The position numbers and the translations under genes are program-made. Of a DNA stretch of 31,319 nucleotides, positions 6,770 to 23,688 are shown piece by piece (the first letter of the stretch is position 1; every line of letters starts with the position of its first letter). The DNA is taken from positions 1 to 31,319 of the IMG/VR virus record IMGVR_UViG_3300034092_003133. One strand, 5' to 3'. Below the pieces are notes generated by a model that saw only the letters and a list, made by a program, of their open reading frames with translations, was not told the origin of the DNA and did no database searches. This stretch comes from a virus.

Positions 6770-7618
6770 ATTGGTCTCCTTTAAATTTGCTTGATTTGGA
6801 AATACACCTTCATTTGTAGAATCGTCATTTTTTTCGACACAATTTTTTATGGACGCTAAATTTTTATCAAAGCCTACGCTCTCTTTAGTAAAAATAATGC
6901 TTTCTGGATTAGCTGGTTTATCCACAAAACCTTTACCAGAAAATGTTATTTGTCTTAATACTCTACCAATTTTATAGTTTTGATGTTCGCCTTGTCCGCC
7001 ATATGCTCTTAAATGTTTTGTTAAAAAAGCTGTTTCTTCATTTCTAGGCAAAACATTAAAATTACCATTTGCTTTATCAATTAAACCATAATCAAATCCC
7101 TTGAAAAAACATTCCATACTAACATATTTATTTCCGGATTCTATTTCTTCTATAAGAGTATTTGACCTGGCCCTTAATTCAGGATCTGTATATCCTTTGT
7201 AGATAACAGAACCAGTTAAAATATGGTATTTTTTAGGAAGTTGTGCAAGATCGATGTTTTGGTCTATGATCGACCCATCGTCATCTATGGGCCAATTAGA
7301 AGTAATGTGGCCAACTATAGCATTTTCATTATGCTCAAGATTTGTTGGTTTGTCTTCTGGGGTGTTTTTAGCTGCCCAAACTTCTTCTGGATCAAAAATA
7401 TCATCATTTTTATTCCATGAAGTTGTAACAAGAATTGACTGGGTATAATATAAATCAGTATCGTCTATACCGGCTAATGCCTGATTATTGTTTATTTTTT
7501 GTTTAGCTTCAGAAGATTGATCTCTACATTTTTCTGCCAATGAAGCATAAACTATAGAAGATTTAGCAGATAATAGTTCAGTTAATCCTGCTTCTTTTTC
7601 TGCTGAATAAATTATCAT
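6161..7618 (-). CDS. Prohead protease-scaffold fusion
   Basis: 485 aa. Residues 1-260 look like a phage prohead serine protease: LEHNEN with His96, GHITSN with His104, a KYVSMECFF segment with candidate nucleophile Ser167, and a GKGFVDKPANPES segment at about 228-240, which matches the 'VDxPANP' signature of these enzymes. Residues about 284-430 are Glu/Lys/Met-rich coiled coil typical of capsid scaffold. The stop of the portal gene overlaps the ATG (ATGA). GAGGGTGAAAA precedes the start. The role is to nucleate and then mature the prohead. The catalytic triad is inferred from motifs, not alignment. Confidence 0.82.
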   Translation of the reverse strand: MIIYSAEKEAGLTELLSAKSSIVYASLAEKCRDQSSEAKQKINNNQALAGIDDTDLYYTQSILVTTSWNKNDDIFDPEEVWAAKNTPEDKPTNLEHNENAIVGHITSNWPIDDDGSIIDQNIDLAQLPKKYHILTGSVIYKGYTDPELRARSNTLIEEIESGNKYVSMECFFKGFDYGLIDKANGNFNVLPRNEETAFLTKHLRAYGGQGEHQNYKIGRVLRQITFSGKGFVDKPANPESIIFTKESVGFDKNLASIKNCVEKNDDSTNEGVFPNQANLKETNMSVEPDVAKSEEVEVTETTVVEAPVENTNISQIEHEEAAKKMNEEMKKKEEEMKKMKAALETMESELSAANEALAGYRAKEAEMMKKDKKAKRMASLIESGLDNETAEATVEKFDSLDDETFATVTQIVAAKKSMKEEKTEKVEEKKMASVEADASVLETAEVEDTVNLSISSDNDSQIQNTRAALVDFVCIRLGKKLNKGE

Positions 7619-9828
7619 TTTTCACCCTCTGTGTTTATTTCATCAGGGAAATACACCATTTGATAAAAATAGGCTTTACTATACTTAGTTTCATCACTAG
7701 TTAATGATCTATTAATTTCATTCGCTAAAAGTTTTTCTAATGTAAAATATTTATTAAGAAGCATATTACTATCAATACTATTAATAGTATTGAGTTTTGC
7801 TAAAACAGTTTCTTCTGTAATTTTACTAAAAGGATCTAAAGATAATAAGATTTTTGTTTTAGTATTTTCTGCTTCAATATATTCAGAATTAGATAAACTG
7901 CGCATATTCTTTTTTTGATAAAACTCTAATAAATATGGGTTCAATATATCTGATATTTCATCTTGTGCCTTCATAGACCAAATCTGTATAGACGCGCCTG
8001 TTTGAGGAGCAAATTGTTTAGTTTTTCTTTGCTGGGTATCTTTGCTAGTCTTAGGTCTACCTTGTTGTGGCTGACCAGGAGTTTTAGAAGAAGGTGGATT
8101 TCCACCACCGACAGGAGAAGATGGTACTTTAAGTTCCATAGCATTTTTTTGACCAGATTTTTTCTTAGATAATTCTAGCCCTACTTCACTAGGAGTAACA
8201 ATACCTGTTTGTAATGCAATCTTTTTAAGATTATCTTCTAATTGTGGATTATAATATGGTCCTGCTTTATGAACCATTCTTTCATTGTCTCTTTCTCTAG
8301 TTTCTCTATTAAGTCTGATCTTTTCCATATCTGGATCATATCCAAAAGCTCTTTGTACCAATTCATCGCTTACAATATTACGATCAGCTAATTGAATTAG
8401 TAAAGCTTTTTCAGCATCTTCATTACTTAAATCCATTCTGTCAAATTCTATCTTGGCTGGAAAACGAAAACCCATAGCTTTTTGTACTAGTTCAATTTCA
8501 CTCTTCCAAAAACTCATTAAGACCTTGCGGCCGTATTGAAGTCTTTGAGTCAATGTTTTTAAACTAATAAAATTATTAGTAGTACCAGCAGCACCATATG
8601 TTCCTGTAAGTGTCGGAGGAATACCCAAGCCAGCATAAATAGCATTTAAATGGGGTGTATATTTACCTTCGCCAAGAAATTGATGAACACTTGTTTTACT
8701 TTCTATCAATTCAATGTCTGGACCCCATACCAGATCCATAGTGCCACCACCAATATTGGCCTGAAGGATATTACTAAGTTTACTGGCCGCAGCTTGTGTA
8801 GGAGCAATTTTATGCTCAAGACTACCAAGTTTAAATATTCTTATATTACTGATGGCCCCATCTAGAGCTGCTAAATCTGCAAGCTTTAATTTTTCTACTA
8901 TACTAATATCATCCATGATACTGTATATCATTGGATATGCCCAAGTTTTCCAATCGTCTTTCTTATAGTGAAATACTAATGTTTTATTTGGATCTAGTGG
9001 ATAGGGTTTTTTATCCTTAGATGCTTCAATGATTGCTGATGGAAGCTGCTGAATTATGAATCTTTCTGCATCATTTTTAGGAGCATTAATTAATTTTCTT
9101 AAGCTGGCTGGAATAGTAATGGTATATGTCTTATTACTAACAAAAGATGCTAATGAAGCTCCAGAAATATCTACTATGCGAGGATCGATAAAAGTGTATC
9201 TCCACGGAATTTCTCTTTTTTCAACTTGCTGATCTTCACTATTTATAATCAAATCTGGTGAAGCTTTTGCTTTATACATTTCATCTGCAATTTTTAAACT
9301 GATTTTTGCTGTTTGTTTATTGATAATAACATTACCTGTACGATATAAATGATTTAAGAATCTTTCACTTCTTTCTTCACCTTTGACTTTATCAAACCAA
9401 TTACGATAAAATCTTTGAATTCTTTTATTTGGATGAACTAGACGAATACCCTGACTAGCAAAATCACCCATAAGATCTATAACATTTTTTACTAAACCAA
9501 CTCGATTATAAATTTGGTCTGCCATAGCAAATATGGCTTTGATTTCTGTTGGGACAGCTTCGTCTGGGCGAAAATAATCATAGTCAGTTTTTGTTAAACC
9601 AGGACGACTAGAAATCGGCCCGTCTAAATTCATAAAATTTCTAAAACGACTAGTGGCAGCGGTAACTTTGTTCTGATAGATGCCGTATTCGTCTAGGCTT
9701 TTAGAAGATTCGTTTAAGGCTTGCTTCTTACTTTCAAGATCGTCTCCCCAAGTAACATATGCATTTTCTGGCATAATATTTGAAGCAATTTCTAAACCTT
9801 GTGTTTTATTGGTCTTTTTTCTTGACAT
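7615..9828 (-). CDS. Portal protein
   Basis: 737 aa, between terminase and protease as usual for portals. The N-terminal half has 'VIDLMGDFASQGIRLVHP' and 'FLNHLYRTGNVII', a WRYTFIDPRIV segment, and later 'GLGIPPTLTG', 'LQYGRKVLMSFWKSEIELVQKAMG', patterns typical of portal clip/stem regions. The C-terminal third is longer than in minimal portals, with a Pro/Gln/Lys-rich linker (about 575-625) and a helical tail. It would form the dodecameric ring for DNA entry and exit. No strong SD precedes ATG 9828; AT-rich sequence separates it from terminase. Confidence 0.85.
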   Translation of the reverse strand: MSRKKTNKTQGLEIASNIMPENAYVTWGDDLESKKQALNESSKSLDEYGIYQNKVTAATSRFRNFMNLDGPISSRPGLTKTDYDYFRPDEAVPTEIKAIFAMADQIYNRVGLVKNVIDLMGDFASQGIRLVHPNKRIQRFYRNWFDKVKGEERSERFLNHLYRTGNVIINKQTAKISLKIADEMYKAKASPDLIINSEDQQVEKREIPWRYTFIDPRIVDISGASLASFVSNKTYTITIPASLRKLINAPKNDAERFIIQQLPSAIIEASKDKKPYPLDPNKTLVFHYKKDDWKTWAYPMIYSIMDDISIVEKLKLADLAALDGAISNIRIFKLGSLEHKIAPTQAAASKLSNILQANIGGGTMDLVWGPDIELIESKTSVHQFLGEGKYTPHLNAIYAGLGIPPTLTGTYGAAGTTNNFISLKTLTQRLQYGRKVLMSFWKSEIELVQKAMGFRFPAKIEFDRMDLSNEDAEKALLIQLADRNIVSDELVQRAFGYDPDMEKIRLNRETRERDNERMVHKAGPYYNPQLEDNLKKIALQTGIVTPSEVGLELSKKKSGQKNAMELKVPSSPVGGGNPPSSKTPGQPQQGRPKTSKDTQQRKTKQFAPQTGASIQIWSMKAQDEISDILNPYLLEFYQKKNMRSLSNSEYIEAENTKTKILLSLDPFSKITEETVLAKLNTINSIDSNMLLNKYFTLEKLLANEINRSLTSDETKYSKAYFYQMVYFPDEINTEGEK

Positions 9829-9877: not shown

Positions 9878-11905
9878 TTATCTGTAAACTCCGCCATATA
9901 TATTAGCGTTAGCATTTTCTGTAAACCATGATGGTCCTTTATACATTTGACCGTCTTTTTTTTCTGTTTTAGATAAATCATTACCAATAACTTCAAAAGA
10001 AACAGGTTCTAATGTTCTAGTAATTTGTCTTGCTAGCATATTAGCTATTATTAAAGCGCTATATCGGTCTTTTCTTAACTTGCCCTTTTTACCATTTGGT
10101 AACTTAATTTCAGGAGTATCCCATCGATCTCTAGCGTTAGGTCCGGTGCTTGTTTGTGTCATGACAATAGTGGTTAATTCATTCTTTAGTTCTTCAATTT
10201 CTAAAATACAATCGCTTTCATTATCATATAAGTTATCAAAATCAGCAGTGCTAATATCTTTACCTTCTTTATCTAATGCTAAGGCTAAACTAACTTGATC
10301 AAATCGTGGAAATAATAATACTTTATCTTCTAGATCTTTTCTTAGTCCATGGTTAGCTTGTGCGGTCCAATCTGCTCTTGCGAACTGTACAAGTTCTAAT
10401 ATGTGTAATCCTTGTTGATCATCCGTATCCTTGGATTTATTAGGATCTATAACTGGCCAAATAACAATTTCTCCATCCTCTAATTTACCAGGGTCATGTA
10501 ATGCTTCTTCTATCGCCACTCCTCCACCCTGAGCATCCATACCTATTCTAGTACAAGGAAAAATTTTCATTAAATTACGAATTTTTCTAGCACAAAATCC
10601 ATAGAAATCATGCTCATTAACTAATCCTGTTTTTTGTCTATCTTTAAAATTATTTCTATTTGTTGTCCAAGCATATACTATTCTACTATGATCTTTATGC
10701 AATTCTAAAATAACAATACTAAAATTATCTTTTTCACTAGCAGGATCTATTCCATAAACATATTGAAGATCAGGATTTCCTCTGGTAGATACATCAAATA
10801 AAATAGTATTATTACCAATAATAATAGGTTTATTTTCACTTACTACACAGCTTTCAATTAAACTTCGTCTAAAAAAACCATCACTATCTTCTGTAAAACA
10901 AGCAGCATATTCCATATTATATATACCGGTATGTATAGTAGCTTTGGCTCTACTAACTTGTTTATCATCCATGAATCCTTTGGGTATGATTTCATAAGGA
11001 ATACGAATAATACTATAATCTTTCCAATTAAAACTATCAGGAATTTCCCCTTTAAATATTTCTTCTAGTTTTTGTTTATCTCCACGACTATTAATAATAG
11101 CTTTGTATCTTTTCCAATATGATGCAAAATGTTTGAAACTATAATCTGCTGTTCCAGCTATAATAGCCTGATTGCTTTTCTTTATTTGCAAAGATTCTAA
11201 TTCATCATTCCATAATCCTGCTTCGCGCATAGCTTTTCTTTTTGCTTCTTCTTTTACGTTTTGTATTGGACTAGCACTTACGGCGGCGAAGCCTGAAACT
11301 ACAGTCTCATAAATATCTGGTGATATTGATGCGAATTCGTCTGCGATGATAATATGTGCTCTTAAACCTCTGATCTTACTACCATCACCCATAGGAACAG
11401 CAATCGTCCAACTTTCGCCCAATCTCATAGTGCATCTGTCAACATCTCGACGCGGACCATCATCGTTACCACTAAAGATACTTCGTAATATAGGACTATT
11501 GCGCCATAATGTTTCCATATATTCGAAAATAATTTTACTTTGTCTAAAAGCTGCGCCAACCACAACAATTTTGGTTCCTGGAACAAGAACACAGCGTAAT
11601 GTACAATATAGTGCCATTAAAAAGCTTTTGCCAAAACCACGACTAGCAACATACATTGGAAATGGACGTATCCAGAACTCTTGAAGTATGGCTATTTGAA
11701 TAGGATGAAGTTCAATATCAAATAATAATTTAGCAGTAGTGCCAAAATACTTTGGGTCTCGTAAAAGTCTTAATAAATGAAGGTCCGGATTTTCTATATC
11801 TTCCTTGGTTCGACCAAATAATGGATTGTGGTCTATGGTTATTTTGCTTATGTCTCCTAGTCCGAGCCAAGCATCATCGAAATTAGTTATTATTTTGTTT
11901 GCCAT
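9878..11905 (-). CDS. terL: Terminase large subunit
   Basis: 675 aa. The ATPase domain has Walker A SRGFGKS at about 88-94 and Walker B HIIIADE at about 184-190. The C-terminal RNase H-like nuclease shows GIDPA (Asp387) and GMDAQGGG (Asp457). Length is normal to slightly long for the family. It cuts and pumps concatemeric DNA into the prohead through the portal. Its ATG overlaps the end of the ERCC4-like nuclease gene by 23 bp, so the packaging genes form a tightly overlapping operon. Confidence 0.95.
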   Translation of the reverse strand: MANKIITNFDDAWLGLGDISKITIDHNPLFGRTKEDIENPDLHLLRLLRDPKYFGTTAKLLFDIELHPIQIAILQEFWIRPFPMYVASRGFGKSFLMALYCTLRCVLVPGTKIVVVGAAFRQSKIIFEYMETLWRNSPILRSIFSGNDDGPRRDVDRCTMRLGESWTIAVPMGDGSKIRGLRAHIIIADEFASISPDIYETVVSGFAAVSASPIQNVKEEAKRKAMREAGLWNDELESLQIKKSNQAIIAGTADYSFKHFASYWKRYKAIINSRGDKQKLEEIFKGEIPDSFNWKDYSIIRIPYEIIPKGFMDDKQVSRAKATIHTGIYNMEYAACFTEDSDGFFRRSLIESCVVSENKPIIIGNNTILFDVSTRGNPDLQYVYGIDPASEKDNFSIVILELHKDHSRIVYAWTTNRNNFKDRQKTGLVNEHDFYGFCARKIRNLMKIFPCTRIGMDAQGGGVAIEEALHDPGKLEDGEIVIWPVIDPNKSKDTDDQQGLHILELVQFARADWTAQANHGLRKDLEDKVLLFPRFDQVSLALALDKEGKDISTADFDNLYDNESDCILEIEELKNELTTIVMTQTSTGPNARDRWDTPEIKLPNGKKGKLRKDRYSALIIANMLARQITRTLEPVSFEVIGNDLSKTEKKDGQMYKGPSWFTENANANIYGGVYR

Positions 11906-12613: not shown

Positions 12614-13421
12614 TGTGCAGCTCTAAACTTTCTGGGTTTAGTATGGGCGAATCTATCTGGCGATCAGCATATTCGTGATATTCGTACAAAAGATTTTTCT
12701 TGGCATTACTTGTGGCCATGGCCAAAATCTCCATCTCTTTGCCTTCTTTTTCTCTTACTGCTTCATCTTCTAACATGCGTATTAAACCCACCCAAGAGCT
12801 TTTACCATCTTCTATTCTTTTAATTCGTTGTTCACGAGTGGCCTTAAGATCTTTGCTAATTTTTTGCTGTTCAGATAATAATTTAGTATATTCGTTTGTG
12901 TAACTGGCTATGCTATTACGGGCAAAACCTAGTTGAGTTTCTAAATTTGCTAGACGAGGAATATCTCTTTGATCTTCTGGTTTATCATATTCTTTATCAA
13001 CTAATTTTTGTAATTTTTCTGTTTCACTAATATGACGCTTTCGTTCCTTCATGCTTCTATTAATCAAAATATCAATAGTGATAAATTGTTTAATTTGTAA
13101 TTCTTCAGCAGGAAGAACGTCCTCTCGGAATTGTTTAATAAGTCCAACCCACGTATCTTCAAAGTATTCTAATTCGCCGCTTTCACTATCAAACTGTCTT
13201 AGTATTTCGTTCCAAAATGTTTTGCTGTGGAGTTTTCGTTTAAGGGTTTCGTTTTCTCCTTTTTCGCTTAGAGAATATAATTGATTTTCATCAATATAAC
13301 GATTTATAGGATCAACATTTCTATTTAATGCTTCTGCTATTTGTTCAACACTAATAATATTAATATTATCTCGTATGAATTTTTCTTCGTCTAGTGCTAG
13401 TTGTCCGCGTTTTTTAGCCAT
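12603..13421 (-). CDS. Putative small terminase / DNA-recognition protein
   Basis: 272 aa. Residues about 10-45 form a helix-turn-helix-like segment (FIRDNINIISVEQIAEALNR...), followed by a long charged helical and coiled-coil body (100-235). Small terminase subunits combine an N-terminal HTH with a helical oligomerisation region, and this gene precedes the nucleases and large terminase in the operon. It is longer than most small terminases. The family is not certain from sequence reading alone. Confidence 0.55.
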   Translation of the reverse strand: MAKKRGQLALDEEKFIRDNINIISVEQIAEALNRNVDPINRYIDENQLYSLSEKGENETLKRKLHSKTFWNEILRQFDSESGELEYFEDTWVGLIKQFREDVLPAEELQIKQFITIDILINRSMKERKRHISETEKLQKLVDKEYDKPEDQRDIPRLANLETQLGFARNSIASYTNEYTKLLSEQQKISKDLKATREQRIKRIEDGKSSWVGLIRMLEDEAVREKEGKEMEILAMATSNAKKNLLYEYHEYADRQIDSPILNPESLELHNDS

Positions 13422-14022
13422 GATCTTTTAGTATTTGTTGAATAGTTTGTGTGAGTTTAGCAAGGTCGTTCTTACTAACTTTGGTGCCACTCTTCATTTT
13501 TAAATATGTAATTCGGTCATTCCCCGTTAGATGTTCTTCTGCTATTCTTATAAGTTCATTATTAACAATATTGTCTTCTGTGTTAAAAACATTAGCATAA
13601 TCTTTAACCTCATCAATAGTTGTTAGATACATTAGATTTTTTTTAACATTATTTCTGTTTGACCAATTATAGTATAACTCACAATCATTTTTATTACTAT
13701 ATTTTGTGCAGGAAGAATTCTTATATAAGGGGCATGTTAAGCACGGTTTGTCGGGCCTTTGATAGTTATCTCTTTTATAGTTGAAAAGGCGATTTCTAAC
13801 GTGGGTCCAAAGAAAGTTTTCAAGGGGTCTTTTATGATCATAATTTTTAAGACCTTCTAGGGCAAAGATACTTATCTGTTGCTTCATATCTTCATAATCA
13901 TGATATCCAAACTTAAATTTGTATGCTAATTTTTTAGTTATAATTTCAATAATATTTAAAAATTCATTTTCATCCACTGATAGCGGGGATTTCTTCTGTG
14001 TTTTGGTCTTTTTCTTTTTCAT
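13414..14022 (-). CDS. Sigma-like late transcription factor
   Basis: 202 aa. Residues about 38-86 resemble sigma region 2: YHDYEDMKQQISIFALEGLKNYD followed by PLENFLWTHVRNRLFNYKRD, the usual DNA-melting/-10-binding stretch. A Cys cluster follows (Cys94, 97, 105, 114; PCLTCPLY...C...C) and probably binds zinc. The C-terminus (about 165-202) could be a reduced region 4. Phage-encoded minimal sigma factors such as T4 gp55 direct late transcription, and this gene heads the late cluster. AAGAAAAAG-rich sequence surrounds the start; it overlaps the preceding small gene by 53 bp. Confidence 0.7.
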   Translation of the reverse strand: MKKKKTKTQKKSPLSVDENEFLNIIEIITKKLAYKFKFGYHDYEDMKQQISIFALEGLKNYDHKRPLENFLWTHVRNRLFNYKRDNYQRPDKPCLTCPLYKNSSCTKYSNKNDCELYYNWSNRNNVKKNLMYLTTIDEVKDYANVFNTEDNIVNNELIRIAEEHLTGNDRITYLKMKSGTKVSKNDLAKLTQTIQQILKDHG

Positions 14023-14932: not shown

Positions 14933-14960
14933 TTGACTTGCCGATAATCTACTGTAGAAT
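14933..14960 (+). promoter_or_regulatory. Rightward promoter (CCGATA spacer type)
   Basis: TTGACT, 16 bp containing CCGATA, then TAGAAT. It is preceded by the AT-rich block GCCAAACAAAAATCTTTTTT, which is repeated near 15419 and may act as an UP element. Confidence 0.8.
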
Positions 14961-20355: not shown

Positions 20356-20874
20356 ATGTTCACTATTGCCGATTTTGAACGCGCTAGGGCAAGTAGAAAG
20401 ATAGATAGCATTATGGATGCTATTCTATTTACTATTCAAAAGAATGAGTTTGCTTATGCTATGAATCTTTGTGATAGCCATGATAGGGGAGTTTATGCAG
20501 AAAGATTGGTTGGTAATAAGTTGGCCGATCATGGTATGGTTGTAGAGTTTTGTGGGGCCGATAAAGATTATGATCTGTTGATCAATGGGTCTATTCGGAC
20601 AGAAGTTAAACTTGGTACTATTCAGCCTAATGGTAAGAATAATACTAAGTATATTTTTCATAAAATTAAGCCTGAACTTTTTGATGTGATCTTTATGGTC
20701 TTTCTGCATCCTAACGGAGTTGAGATTAAGTGGACAACAGGCGAAATGTTTAATGAATGGAGTGTAGATTATAAGCGTGGTAAAAATGGTTATTCTATTA
20801 CTTTTAATGGTGATATGATTGCTAAAAAGTTAATCTATAATGAGACAATAGATAGTTTTATTAGACTATATTAA
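20356..20874 (+). CDS. PD-(D/E)XK nuclease-like protein, predicted leaderless
   Basis: 172 aa. AERLVGNKL (Glu49), DYDLLING (Asp71/Asp73) and RTEVKLG (Glu83, Lys85) give the spacing and residues of a PD-(D/E)XK core as in restriction endonucleases and repair nucleases; YIFHK and FMVFLHPNGVEIKW fit the next core strands. No methyltransferase gene is adjacent. It could be an endonuclease attacking host or rival DNA, or a repair enzyme. The ATG lies 6 nt after the -10. The stop is followed one base later by a TGCCA repeat. Confidence 0.72.
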   Translation: MFTIADFERARASRKIDSIMDAILFTIQKNEFAYAMNLCDSHDRGVYAERLVGNKLADHGMVVEFCGADKDYDLLINGSIRTEVKLGTIQPNGKNNTKYIFHKIKPELFDVIFMVFLHPNGVEIKWTTGEMFNEWSVDYKRGKNGYSITFNGDMIAKKLIYNETIDSFIRLY

Positions 20875-20875
20875 C

Positions 20876-20917
20876 TGCCAAAGTGGCATATGGGCCGCCC
20901 GGCCTGCCACAATGGCA
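20876..20917. repeat. TGCCA-N3-TGGCA pair
   Basis: TGCCAAAGTGGCA (20876) and TGCCACAATGGCA (20905), 29 bp apart; TACTATTTTTTC follows the second copy. Confidence 0.88.
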
Positions 20918-20942
20918 TACTATTTTTTCTCATTTTTTTCTC

Positions 20943-20971
20943 TTGACAGACCGATAATAGGGGTGTAGAAT
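20943..20971 (+). promoter_or_regulatory. Rightward promoter (CCGATA spacer type)
   Basis: TTGACA, 17 bp with GACCGATA, TAGAAT; drives the tRNA-like gene at 20987. Confidence 0.8.
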
Positions 20972-20986
20972 ACGAGAGTAAGACAT

Positions 20987-21091
20987 GGCGAATGTAGTGT
21001 AATGGTAGCACGGGGAAGTGTCCGAGACACTGACCACAGTGGAGTAGGCTTGCAAAATGCCCATGAGATGGTTCGATTCCATCCTTCGCCC
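20987..21091 (+). tRNA. Aberrant tRNA-like gene, possible tRNA-Cys(GCA) with insertion
   Basis: The ends are tRNA-like: acceptor GGCGAA/TTCGCC (seventh pair T-C mismatched), D-arm GTG-TAATGGTAG-CAC, and perfect T-arm GATGG-TTCGATT-CCATC. The middle is about 30 nt too long. It contains the hairpin AGTGTC-CGA-GACACT, then CCAC/GTGG, then AGGC-TTGCAAA-ATGCCC, whose loop would expose GCA (Cys). It may be a tRNA with an insert before the anticodon arm, a long-variable-arm tRNA reading through CGA, or a tRNA mimic. Confidence 0.45.
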
Positions 21092-21092
21092 C

Positions 21093-21120
21093 TTGACAAA
21101 TAGAAAACAAAATGTATAAT
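21093..21120 (+). promoter_or_regulatory. Rightward promoter of the large non-coding RNA
   Basis: TTGACA, 16 bp, TATAAT, starting 2 bp past the tRNA-like gene. Confidence 0.8.
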
Positions 21121-21126
21121 GAGAGT

Positions 21127-21658
21127 CGCCAGTTCGCTACTGGCTGATCTGTGGGAATGCTGTTAGCCACAGTAAGTAATAACAAAAATCGGCACCATAC
21201 AAGTCTCGTAAGAGACACAAACTTCCGTGGGTCCATGCGACGGGACTAGATTAGGATAAGCCATTACGATAAACCTACGGCTGTTACGCAGCGTGGGGTT
21301 GACAGCGGGCTTATACGCTGTATAGTAGTGCTAATCTATGGGGGATGGCATCCTCACCATGAGTAATACAACCAGTAACCGTTACCAAGAGCCAGACCAG
21401 AGCGGGTCTTATGTGCTAGCAATGCCCGCTTTGCAGGGAGGATTTCCGTGGACGGTTTACACCATGTCCGTAACAGGGTAGCACGGTGAGGCAGAATCGG
21501 GGCGTAAAAGATTCGCTGGTTAAAATACAATCAATCAAAGTGAATAGGAAAGCCGAAGCGTAATGTTGGGAAGCCGGTAGCGGTACATAAGCCGTCCCTG
21601 ACCTATTCATTGACTAGACCATAGATTATTGTGTGCGATCTAGTTTGATTGATTTTTT
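21127..21658 (+). ncRNA. Large highly structured non-coding RNA (about 530 nt)
   Basis: No credible coding frame exists here, but nested stems do. Hairpins: GCCAG/CTGGC (21128/21140), CTGTGG/CCACAG (21149/21167), GTCTC-GTAA-GAGAC (21203), CCTACG/CGTGGG (21274/21292), AGCGGG/CCCGCT (21401/21425), CCGTG/CACGG (21446/21482), GAATC/GATTC (21494/21510). Long-range stems: TAGATTAG/CTAATCTA (21247/21331) enclosing ATAAGCC/GGCTTAT (21256/21308). The 3' domain is closed by AATCAATCAAA/TTTGATTGATT (21529/21644) and holds TGAATAGG/CCTATTCA and ACTAGA/TCTAGT, followed by T6. Promoter at one end and terminator-like T run at the other define the unit. Size and place beside tRNAs resemble GOLLD and ROOL RNAs; homology is not shown. 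Confidence 0.72.
21299..21326 (+). promoter_or_regulatory. Promoter-like sequence inside the large RNA
   Basis: TTGACA, 16 bp, TATAGT. It overlaps the 3' arm of the ATAAGCC/GGCTTAT stem, so it may be an internal promoter for the 3' half or a chance match. Confidence 0.4.
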
Positions 21659-21662
21659 CTTA

Positions 21663-21690
21663 TTGACAAGTCGATAAAAGATAGTATAAT
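21663..21690 (+). promoter_or_regulatory. Rightward promoter (CGATA spacer type)
   Basis: TTGACA, 16 bp with GTCGATAA, TATAAT, directly after the T run that ends the large RNA. Confidence 0.82.
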
Positions 21691-21696
21691 ATACAA

Positions 21697-21848
21697 ACCA
21701 TGGCGGCGAGCCAGCGTCGGACCGGGGGCAGGAAAACCACAAAGCGACCCCGGAACTGGCAATATAAATCTGCTGATAGTTTCCTTACAAAAGGTTGAAC
21801 GGATTAGTACCGAGAGGCTGTTCGTAAAACTATCAGTGGTCGGTACGC
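21697..21848 (+). ncRNA. Structured RNA with pseudoknot (about 150 nt)
   Basis: Stems: GCCAG/CTGGC (21710/21756) enclosing CCGGGG/CCCCGG (21722/21748); CTGATAGTTT/AAACTATCAG (21773/21827), 10 perfect pairs, enclosing GAACGG/CTGTTC (21797/21818). GTACCGA in the inner loop (21807-21813) is complementary to TCGGTAC (21840-21846) beyond the outer stem, which makes a pseudoknot. A 32-codon frame (ATG 21700) is present and very basic, but it runs through the stems, so RNA function is preferred. The RNA ends where the next promoter begins. Confidence 0.65.
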
Positions 21849-21876
21849 TTGACTTTCCTATAACTAATGGTATAAT
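21849..21876 (+). promoter_or_regulatory. Rightward promoter of a leaderless gene
   Basis: TTGACT, 16 bp, TATAAT, then ACGAGT and ATG 21883. Confidence 0.8.
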
Positions 21877-21882
21877 ACGAGT

Positions 21883-22089
21883 ATGAAAGTTACCGCTAAA
21901 CAAAACGCTCGCAAGTGGACTAAAGAACGCTTGAAACGCCATCCCGGTTGTTGGGAAGTTGAGCAGGAAACGAAGTTTGTGCCGTGTTGGCCGGGAGAAG
22001 CGGCCATTATGATTAAGAACACAACCGATGGGTGGAGTGGCTGGTTTCCGATTAAGGACATTGACATTACAAATAACGAGTGTCATTAA
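21883..22089 (+). CDS. 68-aa protein, predicted leaderless, unknown
   Basis: MKVTAKQNARKWTKERLKRHPGCWEVEQETKFVPCWPGEAAIMIKNTTDGWSGWFPIKDID: basic start, Trp-rich, with WPGE and GWSGWFP turns that suggest a small beta domain. The ATG is 6 nt after the -10, so no SD can exist. It is first in a run of ten tightly packed small genes up to 23622. Confidence 0.65.
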   Translation: MKVTAKQNARKWTKERLKRHPGCWEVEQETKFVPCWPGEAAIMIKNTTDGWSGWFPIKDIDITNNECH

Positions 22090-22091
22090 AT

Positions 22092-22340
22092 ATGAACGCA
22101 ATCATTAAACTTGACCAAGACTTCCACCTTTTTAACACTAAGGAAGAGTGGAACTCTTACAAGGATCGTCTTAATCACAGATATGTACACGTTTTGAGCG
22201 ATCCAGAAAAGTTTCCTTGTCTTTCTATTAAAACTCATTATGAGTTTAACAATGCGGGCAGTAGAGATTATCAACACCACTACTTTTTTTATGACTTTAT
22301 CTTAGAGAACGAAGAAGGAAGGGTTAACAATGTACGGTGA
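22092..22340 (+). CDS. 82-aa protein, unknown
   Basis: MNAIIKLDQDFHLFNTKEEWNSYKDRLNHRYVHVLSDPEKFPCLSI... then YQHHYFFYDFIL. An in-frame GTG at 22080 overlaps the previous gene; ATG 22092 is preferred. Tyr/His-rich, with no recognised motif. It overlaps the next gene by 11 bp. Confidence 0.62.
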   Translation: MNAIIKLDQDFHLFNTKEEWNSYKDRLNHRYVHVLSDPEKFPCLSIKTHYEFNNAGSRDYQHHYFFYDFILENEEGRVNNVR

Positions 22341-23622: not shown

Positions 23623-23623
23623 C

Positions 23624-23665
23624 TGCCAATACGACAGGCTGGCGGCGAAATCTGCCAAAGTGGCA
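23624..23665. repeat. TGCCA-N3-TGGCA pair
   Basis: Degenerate TGCCAATACGACA (23624) and perfect TGCCAAAGTGGCA (23653), 29 bp apart; TATATTTTTTC follows. Confidence 0.85.
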
Positions 23666-23688
23666 TATATTTTTTCTATAGATTGGTA

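Follow-up and report, generated by a model that had tools for sequence, protein, structure and literature searches.

A predicted stand-alone noncoding RNA gene with a loop-tail pseudoknot in a large uncultivated phage

The analyzed DNA is the 31,319-base virus record IMGVR_UViG_3300034092_003133 of IMG/VR, the whole of which is referred to below as the window; it belongs to a family of large phages whose RNA-carrying records reach 244 kb. We studied a structured RNA at positions 21697-21846 of its plus strand, which comprises a 5' domain (M6) and a pseudoknotted module (M3a) and lies directly behind a promoter. On comparison with its relatives, M3a is a real and conserved module of noncoding phage RNA that contains a pseudoknot. 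The unit contains the following elements.

21663..21690, plus strand: promoter of the RNA unit, TTGACA-16-TATAAT, CGATA-type and sigma-70-like, matching the consensus at 12 of 12 positions; also present before the unit of the relative L221
21697..21768, plus strand: 5' domain M6, two helices followed by the linker AATATAA
21710-21714 with 21756-21760, plus strand: outer helix of M6, GCCAG/CTGGC, read from the sequence
21722-21727 with 21748-21753, plus strand: inner helix of M6, CCGGGG/CCCCGG, read from the sequence
21769..21846, plus strand: module M3a, a three-way junction with a loop-tail pseudoknot, defined by covariance model R1 and 11 distinct M3a sequences
21773-21782 with 21827-21836, plus strand: stem P1, CTGATAGTTT/AAACTATCAG, 10 bp
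21783-21786 with 21791-21794, plus strand: hairpin P2, CCTT/AAGG
21797-21802 with 21818-21823, plus strand: hairpin P3, GAACGG/CTGTTC, 6 bp including one G-U pair
21807-21813 with 21840-21846, plus strand: pseudoknot of the P3 loop GTACCGA with TCGGTAC, 7 bp

All helices named in the original prediction can be read in the sequence at these places. Since the small hairpin P2 lies beside P1 and P3, the fold is a three-way junction.

Relatives of M3a were collected by several searches. A blastn search with positions 21690-21880 against 48 records carrying relatives of a 737-aa protein of the window gave matches in 11 records at E <= 1. Four of them (G017, G009, G035, and G011) matched in the hairpin at E < 1e-4, and the match in G042 covered only the promoter and the downstream gene. 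Upon inspection, the module was found in G017, G009, and G035 and was missing from G011 (L095), where a partial match to CTGATAGTTTCC lacks the partner elements, so this locus was dropped. A gapped pattern search yielded 13 contigs with M3a, the covariance model added four loci (L152, L172, L174, and L179), and later scans added L211, L221, L223, and L225 (the flank of L225 is that of L223). The total number of contigs with M3a, besides the window and with near duplicates included, is thus 21, containing 11 distinct module sequences. When whole records were searched with the model, 13 of 50 matched, each of them once, which rules out a dispersed repeat. Other candidates were rejected: the nine matches of a 16-base exact search represent merely local similarity, a palindrome pattern restricted to P1 gave 15 hits among bacterial and archaeal genomes, none of them with the inner elements, and these elements are also missing in L120-L122 and in L216-L220, L222, and L226-L230, the latter of which appear to be one coding sequence.

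The pairing of M3a is conserved well beyond shuffled alignments. Among the 11 M3a matches (nine distinct, with no row of the M3b subtype described below), 97.1% of cells are paired and 6 of the 27 pairs are changed on both sides; for the 12 distinct rows that include L221, L223, L225, and the M3b of L224, the values are 96.3% and 7 of 27. Neither result was reached in any of 500 shuffles, and in the 12-row test no slid register came near the paired structure. The number of further pair types is not clearly above shuffles (338/500 for the 11 matches and 20/500 for the 12 rows). Model R1 was built from M3a only and holds no pseudoknot, so the pseudoknot counts are not fitted. In the alignment of these 12 rows, L224 does not show its true pseudoknot strand in the last columns, and this counts against the structure.

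The elements differ in how they vary. P1 shows one two-sided change (A-U to G-C in L152) and U-G wobbles, the latter fitting RNA rather than DNA pairing, and is otherwise near-invariant. P2 is represented by a longer alternative hairpin in L108, L117, L172, L221, and L223. P3 is replaced by GAATAA/TTATTC in L107, by the bulged GAACTAACA/TGTTATTC in L117, and by GAAGA../TCTTC in L108. The pseudoknot reads GUACCGA/UCGGUAC in the window, GUACCAC/GUGGUAC in L108, and GCCGA/UCGGC in L107, with three of its seven pairs changed on both sides among the M3a relatives. In a loop-tail shuffle test, the pseudoknot of the L107-type pair (two sequences) is not the longest complementarity and stands at chance, and the other seven sequences gave 108-415 of 5000. 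Stem, hairpin, and pseudoknot all show paired changes, and the pseudoknot proposed in the original prediction is kept in relatives. The length of M3a takes the values 78, 82, 91, 92, and 93, with stops in shifting frames, which excludes a conserved reading frame.

A second subtype, M3b, was found in 21 contigs (20 by pattern, and L224). With M3a it has in common the GAUAG/CUAUC core of P1, the hairpins P2 and P3, the ACCG loop, and the GUAAAACUAUC strand. Downstream of P1, M3b carries a tRNA-like fold, followed by CGAUCC, which pairs with GGGUCG located 5' of P1, and then by CCGGUAU, the partner of the P3 loop AUACCGG. Seventeen aligned sequences (from 17 of the 21 contigs) have 98.2% of cells paired and two-sided changes in 15 of 40 pairs, a result obtained in none of 500 shuffles; the pseudoknot and P1 are invariant within this set. 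Between the subtypes, the pseudoknot is changed from GUACCGA/UCGGUAC to AUACCGG/CCGGUAU, despite the 3' strand having moved behind the tRNA-like insert. The M3a-only model R1 detects one M3b, that of L224 (21.9 bits, E 0.0012); in the other M3b sources searched with it, none reached E 0.01. M3b follows module M2 in some phages, and L211 contains M3b and M3a in tandem. M3a and M3b are interchangeable modules of a mosaic RNA. The M3b insert, which separates the stem from the pseudoknot strand, has covarying acceptor and T stems and scores as a tRNA in L150:8634-8709 and L157:6649-6724 (45.7 bits each) and in L138:6895-6967 (37.8 bits; gathering 29). It lacks the seven-base anticodon loop and the anticodon of a normal tRNA, with ARAGORN giving tRNA-??? 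in L150, L157, and L138 and no tRNA in L173. The insert is reduced in L173 and L203.

The mosaic RNA consists of closed-stem modules joined by A-rich linkers such as AATACAA, with M3 usually being the 3'-most block. In the window it is represented by a larger RNA upstream of the studied unit.

20988..21090, plus strand: tRNA-like element whose anticodon-arm region is enlarged, 29.5 bits with the tRNA model of Rfam (gathering 29), relatives in 23 loci
21093..21120, plus strand: promoter of the larger mosaic RNA, TTGACA-16-TATAAT, 12/12 match
21225..21361, plus strand: module M1, blastn hits in 85 loci
21372..21519, plus strand: module M2, blastn hits in 83 loci, the usual 5' neighbor of M3a in relatives
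21521..21660, plus strand: module M5, AATCAATCAA..TTGATTGATT and then a T-run, ending the larger RNA in the window phage (read from the sequence)

For M1, RNAalifold gave 30 consensus pairs over 25 sequences, 14 of them with compensatory types, and for M2 it gave 17 consensus pairs over 30 sequences, 5 with compensatory types. M1 is duplicated in tandem in L138 and L148. The inner hairpins of M2 are swapped wholesale between phages, with the closing stems kept (L155, L175, L182, and others), as if recombination had exchanged folded RNA blocks. The part that comes after M2 varies and can be a T-run, M3a, M3b, a linker with an open reading frame (ORF), or a promoter. M5 has no homologue among the loci compared. 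The larger RNA of the window ends in M5 with its T-run, and M3a has its own 5' domain there, with a second promoter in front of the two. The tRNA-like element has acceptor, D, and T arms and is not called as a tRNA by ARAGORN; its relatives at this position have differing replacements of the anticodon arm (L091, L152, and L172).

The promoter-M6-M3a arrangement is repeated in L221, with 86% identity over a 203-column alignment. Among the loci compared, this is the only homologue of M6 found by blastn, and both M6 helices are unchanged there. M2 was not matched in the 28-kb L221 record, which is a fragment. Because the unit recurs in a record without M2, comparison identifies it as a stand-alone RNA gene, and the earlier proposal of a structured RNA able to stand alone behind its own CGATA-type promoter holds. 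The 5' neighbor of M3a, counted over 19 rows of the comparison, is M2 in 11, M4 in 6, M3b in 1, and, in the window, a unique domain.

The following features complete the surroundings of the unit.

21849..21876, plus strand: promoter of the next unit, TTGACT-16-TATAAT, 11/12 match, beginning 3 bases past the pseudoknot
21883..22089, plus strand: 68-aa ORF, separate from the RNA, no Pfam match; its homologue in L093 is not preceded by M3
7615-9828, minus strand: 737-aa protein with relatives in viral contigs (at least 600, of which 80 were kept)
9878-11905, minus strand: terminase large subunit TerL (phrog_2)
13414-14022, minus strand: sigma-factor-like protein (weak match)

TerL has at most ~26% identity to the named phages listed, and blastn against named phages gave no DNA match for window positions 20850-22200 or for L117. 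The window also encodes several tRNAs. Promoters of the class TTGAC-N15-17-TANAAT occur 18 times in it, with 0.53 expected, and 17 of the 18 are on the plus strand. The form with the CGATA spacer, TTGACNNNNCGATA-N-TANAAT, occurs five times (starts at 14933, 18448, 20943, 21663, and 22697), with 0.00 expected; its reader may be a phage-modified polymerase or the sigma-factor-like protein. A dispersed terminator-like repeat, TGCCA..TGGCA hairpins followed by a T-run, was observed at 20874-20925 and 23623-23676 and in many places in relatives.

Taken together, the conserved fold, the pseudoknot, the noncoding nature, the modular exchange, and the promoter-driven placement are established by comparison. 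In this large uncultivated phage, the region 21697-21846 is probably a stand-alone gene for a noncoding RNA that is knotted, stable, and trans-acting. By pairing with the RNA just 3' of P1, the P3 loop would tie the end of the transcript onto the junction, and the knot could cap this 3' end against nucleases. The RNA would then act in trans as a stable folded molecule, with the near-invariant P1 and the junction presented to a host or phage factor and the freely swapped hairpins serving as spacers or variable contact sites. A decoy role is possible.

Several observations weigh against this interpretation. The folding-energy z-scores are modest, from -1.1 to -2.4: the whole stretch has z = -1.29 (23 of 200 shuffles as good), M3 alone has z = -1.74 (8/200), and the 5' domain has z = -1.14 (27/200). 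The energy of a single sequence is not decisive. With P1 near-invariant and the M3b pseudoknot constant within its set, these helices rest mainly on the comparison of M3a with M3b. Moreover, hairpins were apparently exchanged whole, as cassettes, and few independent events therefore lie behind the paired changes. M6 has one homologue only. The window has no obvious terminator after M3a. Finally, the phages concerned are uncultivated, and we infer the trans action and function of the RNA from sequence comparison.

It is unlikely that M3 instead acts as a 5' leader on the small ORF downstream, regulating it or stabilizing its mRNA in the manner of the T4 gene 32 pseudoknot or a riboswitch. M3b often has an AGGA, resembling a ribosome-binding site, and an ATG within ~20 bases downstream, and an ORF of the KQNARKW type follows M3a in the window, L116, L152, L221, and L223, as well as in the flank that L225 shares with L223. 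However, in 17 of the 19 M3a rows a promoter lies within 170 bases downstream of the module and before the next ORF, the exceptions being a contig end and a degenerate site. Furthermore, eight different ORFs follow M3a in these rows, and L093 has the KQNARKW gene but no M3 before it. A constant downstream gene in one transcript, which would characterize a cis-regulatory leader, was not found among them. With at least eight different genes downstream of it, and a promoter intervening in nearly every case, M3a is not the leader of one gene, and the suggestion of a 5' regulatory RNA was not borne out for the gene that follows. M3 may still have a cis role in some phages, where the KQNARKW ORF recurs or M3b often stands directly before an ORF.

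The likeness of M3 to flaviviral exonuclease-resistant RNAs (xrRNAs) brings up another explanation, namely a nuclease-blocking knot at which 5'-3' exonucleases like RNase J would halt, so that the RNA downstream is protected. One report describes a flaviviral xrRNA that stops the bacterial RNase J1 (PMC5760640), and M3b is often located just upstream of an ORF. M3a, however, is usually the last module, with little downstream to protect, and the xrRNA ring needs pairing between the 5' end and the junction, whereas M3 is likened to it by the junction and the pseudoknot only. We consider this explanation quite improbable.

The long near-invariant inverted repeat and the surrounding modules, clearly exchanged by recombination, could also point to a DNA-level element, i.e., a palindromic insertion or recombination site. 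The two-sided changes of the pseudoknot, the G-U wobbles in P1 and P3, the position inside promoter-driven units in the orientation of the promoter, and the single copy per record make such an element very improbable. As for the 32-codon frame, open from the ATG at 21700 to the stop at 21798 and originally proposed as a basic peptide that the RNA might regulate, it is scarcely credible as a gene, as it has no evident ribosome-binding site just behind the promoter, is lost in L221 through ATA in place of ATG and a 1-nt insertion in the loop, and is present in no other relative listed.

More speculatively, the whole mosaic might be a combinatorial RNA arsenal, a strong transcript of freely exchanged knotted modules that include tRNA mimics lacking a usable anticodon, with M3 as its nuclease-resistant end cap; we regard this as a tentative idea of low probability. 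If it is true, each module would titrate, block, or survive a different host RNA-binding or RNA-cutting factor, and M3 would be the phage counterpart of viral exonuclease-resistant RNAs. Modules of this family have been swapped, duplicated, and detached in nature, and they include a clean pseudoknot and a tRNA-like insert. The family thus lends itself to asking what each module does and whether phage RNAs, like proteins, evolve through the exchange of folded blocks. At ~150 nt, the M3 unit is short enough to be probed, assayed with nucleases, and studied structurally.

The mosaic RNA family has no Rfam name. In a search of Rfam 15 at E <= 5, window positions 20850-21900 gave only two matches, tRNA at 20988-21090 and, well under its cut-off, MIR160, and the modules in ten relatives gave no match beyond the tRNA-like parts. 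Pistol self-cleaving ribozymes were found in relatives (L108:3945-4007, L138:3618-3680, and L172:5102-5164), so ribozyme detection works in this search; none scored over the cut-off in the window. For GOLLD (RF02032), none of nine records exceeded the gathering score (best 14.5 bits vs 150), and no control genome matched; for ROOL (RF03087), none of nine records matched at E <= 1, where again no control genome matched, leaving this search without a positive control. No paper describing the M3 RNA was found in the open-licence literature.

Several known phage and viral RNAs are nevertheless comparable. The T4 tRNA cluster encodes RNAs C and D (species 1 and 2), which are likewise small stable noncoding RNAs from a phage tRNA region, of unknown function. 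GOLLD and ROOL (PMC12286853) are long pseudoknotted noncoding RNAs encoded by phages, with genes that commonly lie close to tRNA islands and with no known function; the RNA described here differs in being a mosaic of interchangeable closed modules, of which M3 can form an independent unit. The T4 gene 32 mRNA leader contains a phage RNA pseudoknot as well, which, according to PMC3014915, resides in the leader of one gene and is bound by the product of that gene, whereas M3a precedes many genes, mostly with a promoter between. The closest likeness in topology is to the flaviviral xrRNAs, in which, according to PMC5760640, a three-way junction is combined with pairing of an apical loop to a downstream strand; the pair counts for P1, P2, P3, and the pseudoknot give M3 the same combination. 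This is a likeness, not membership, since M3 is a phage RNA without an Rfam match, is usually located on the 3' side of its RNA, and resembles the xrRNAs by topology alone.
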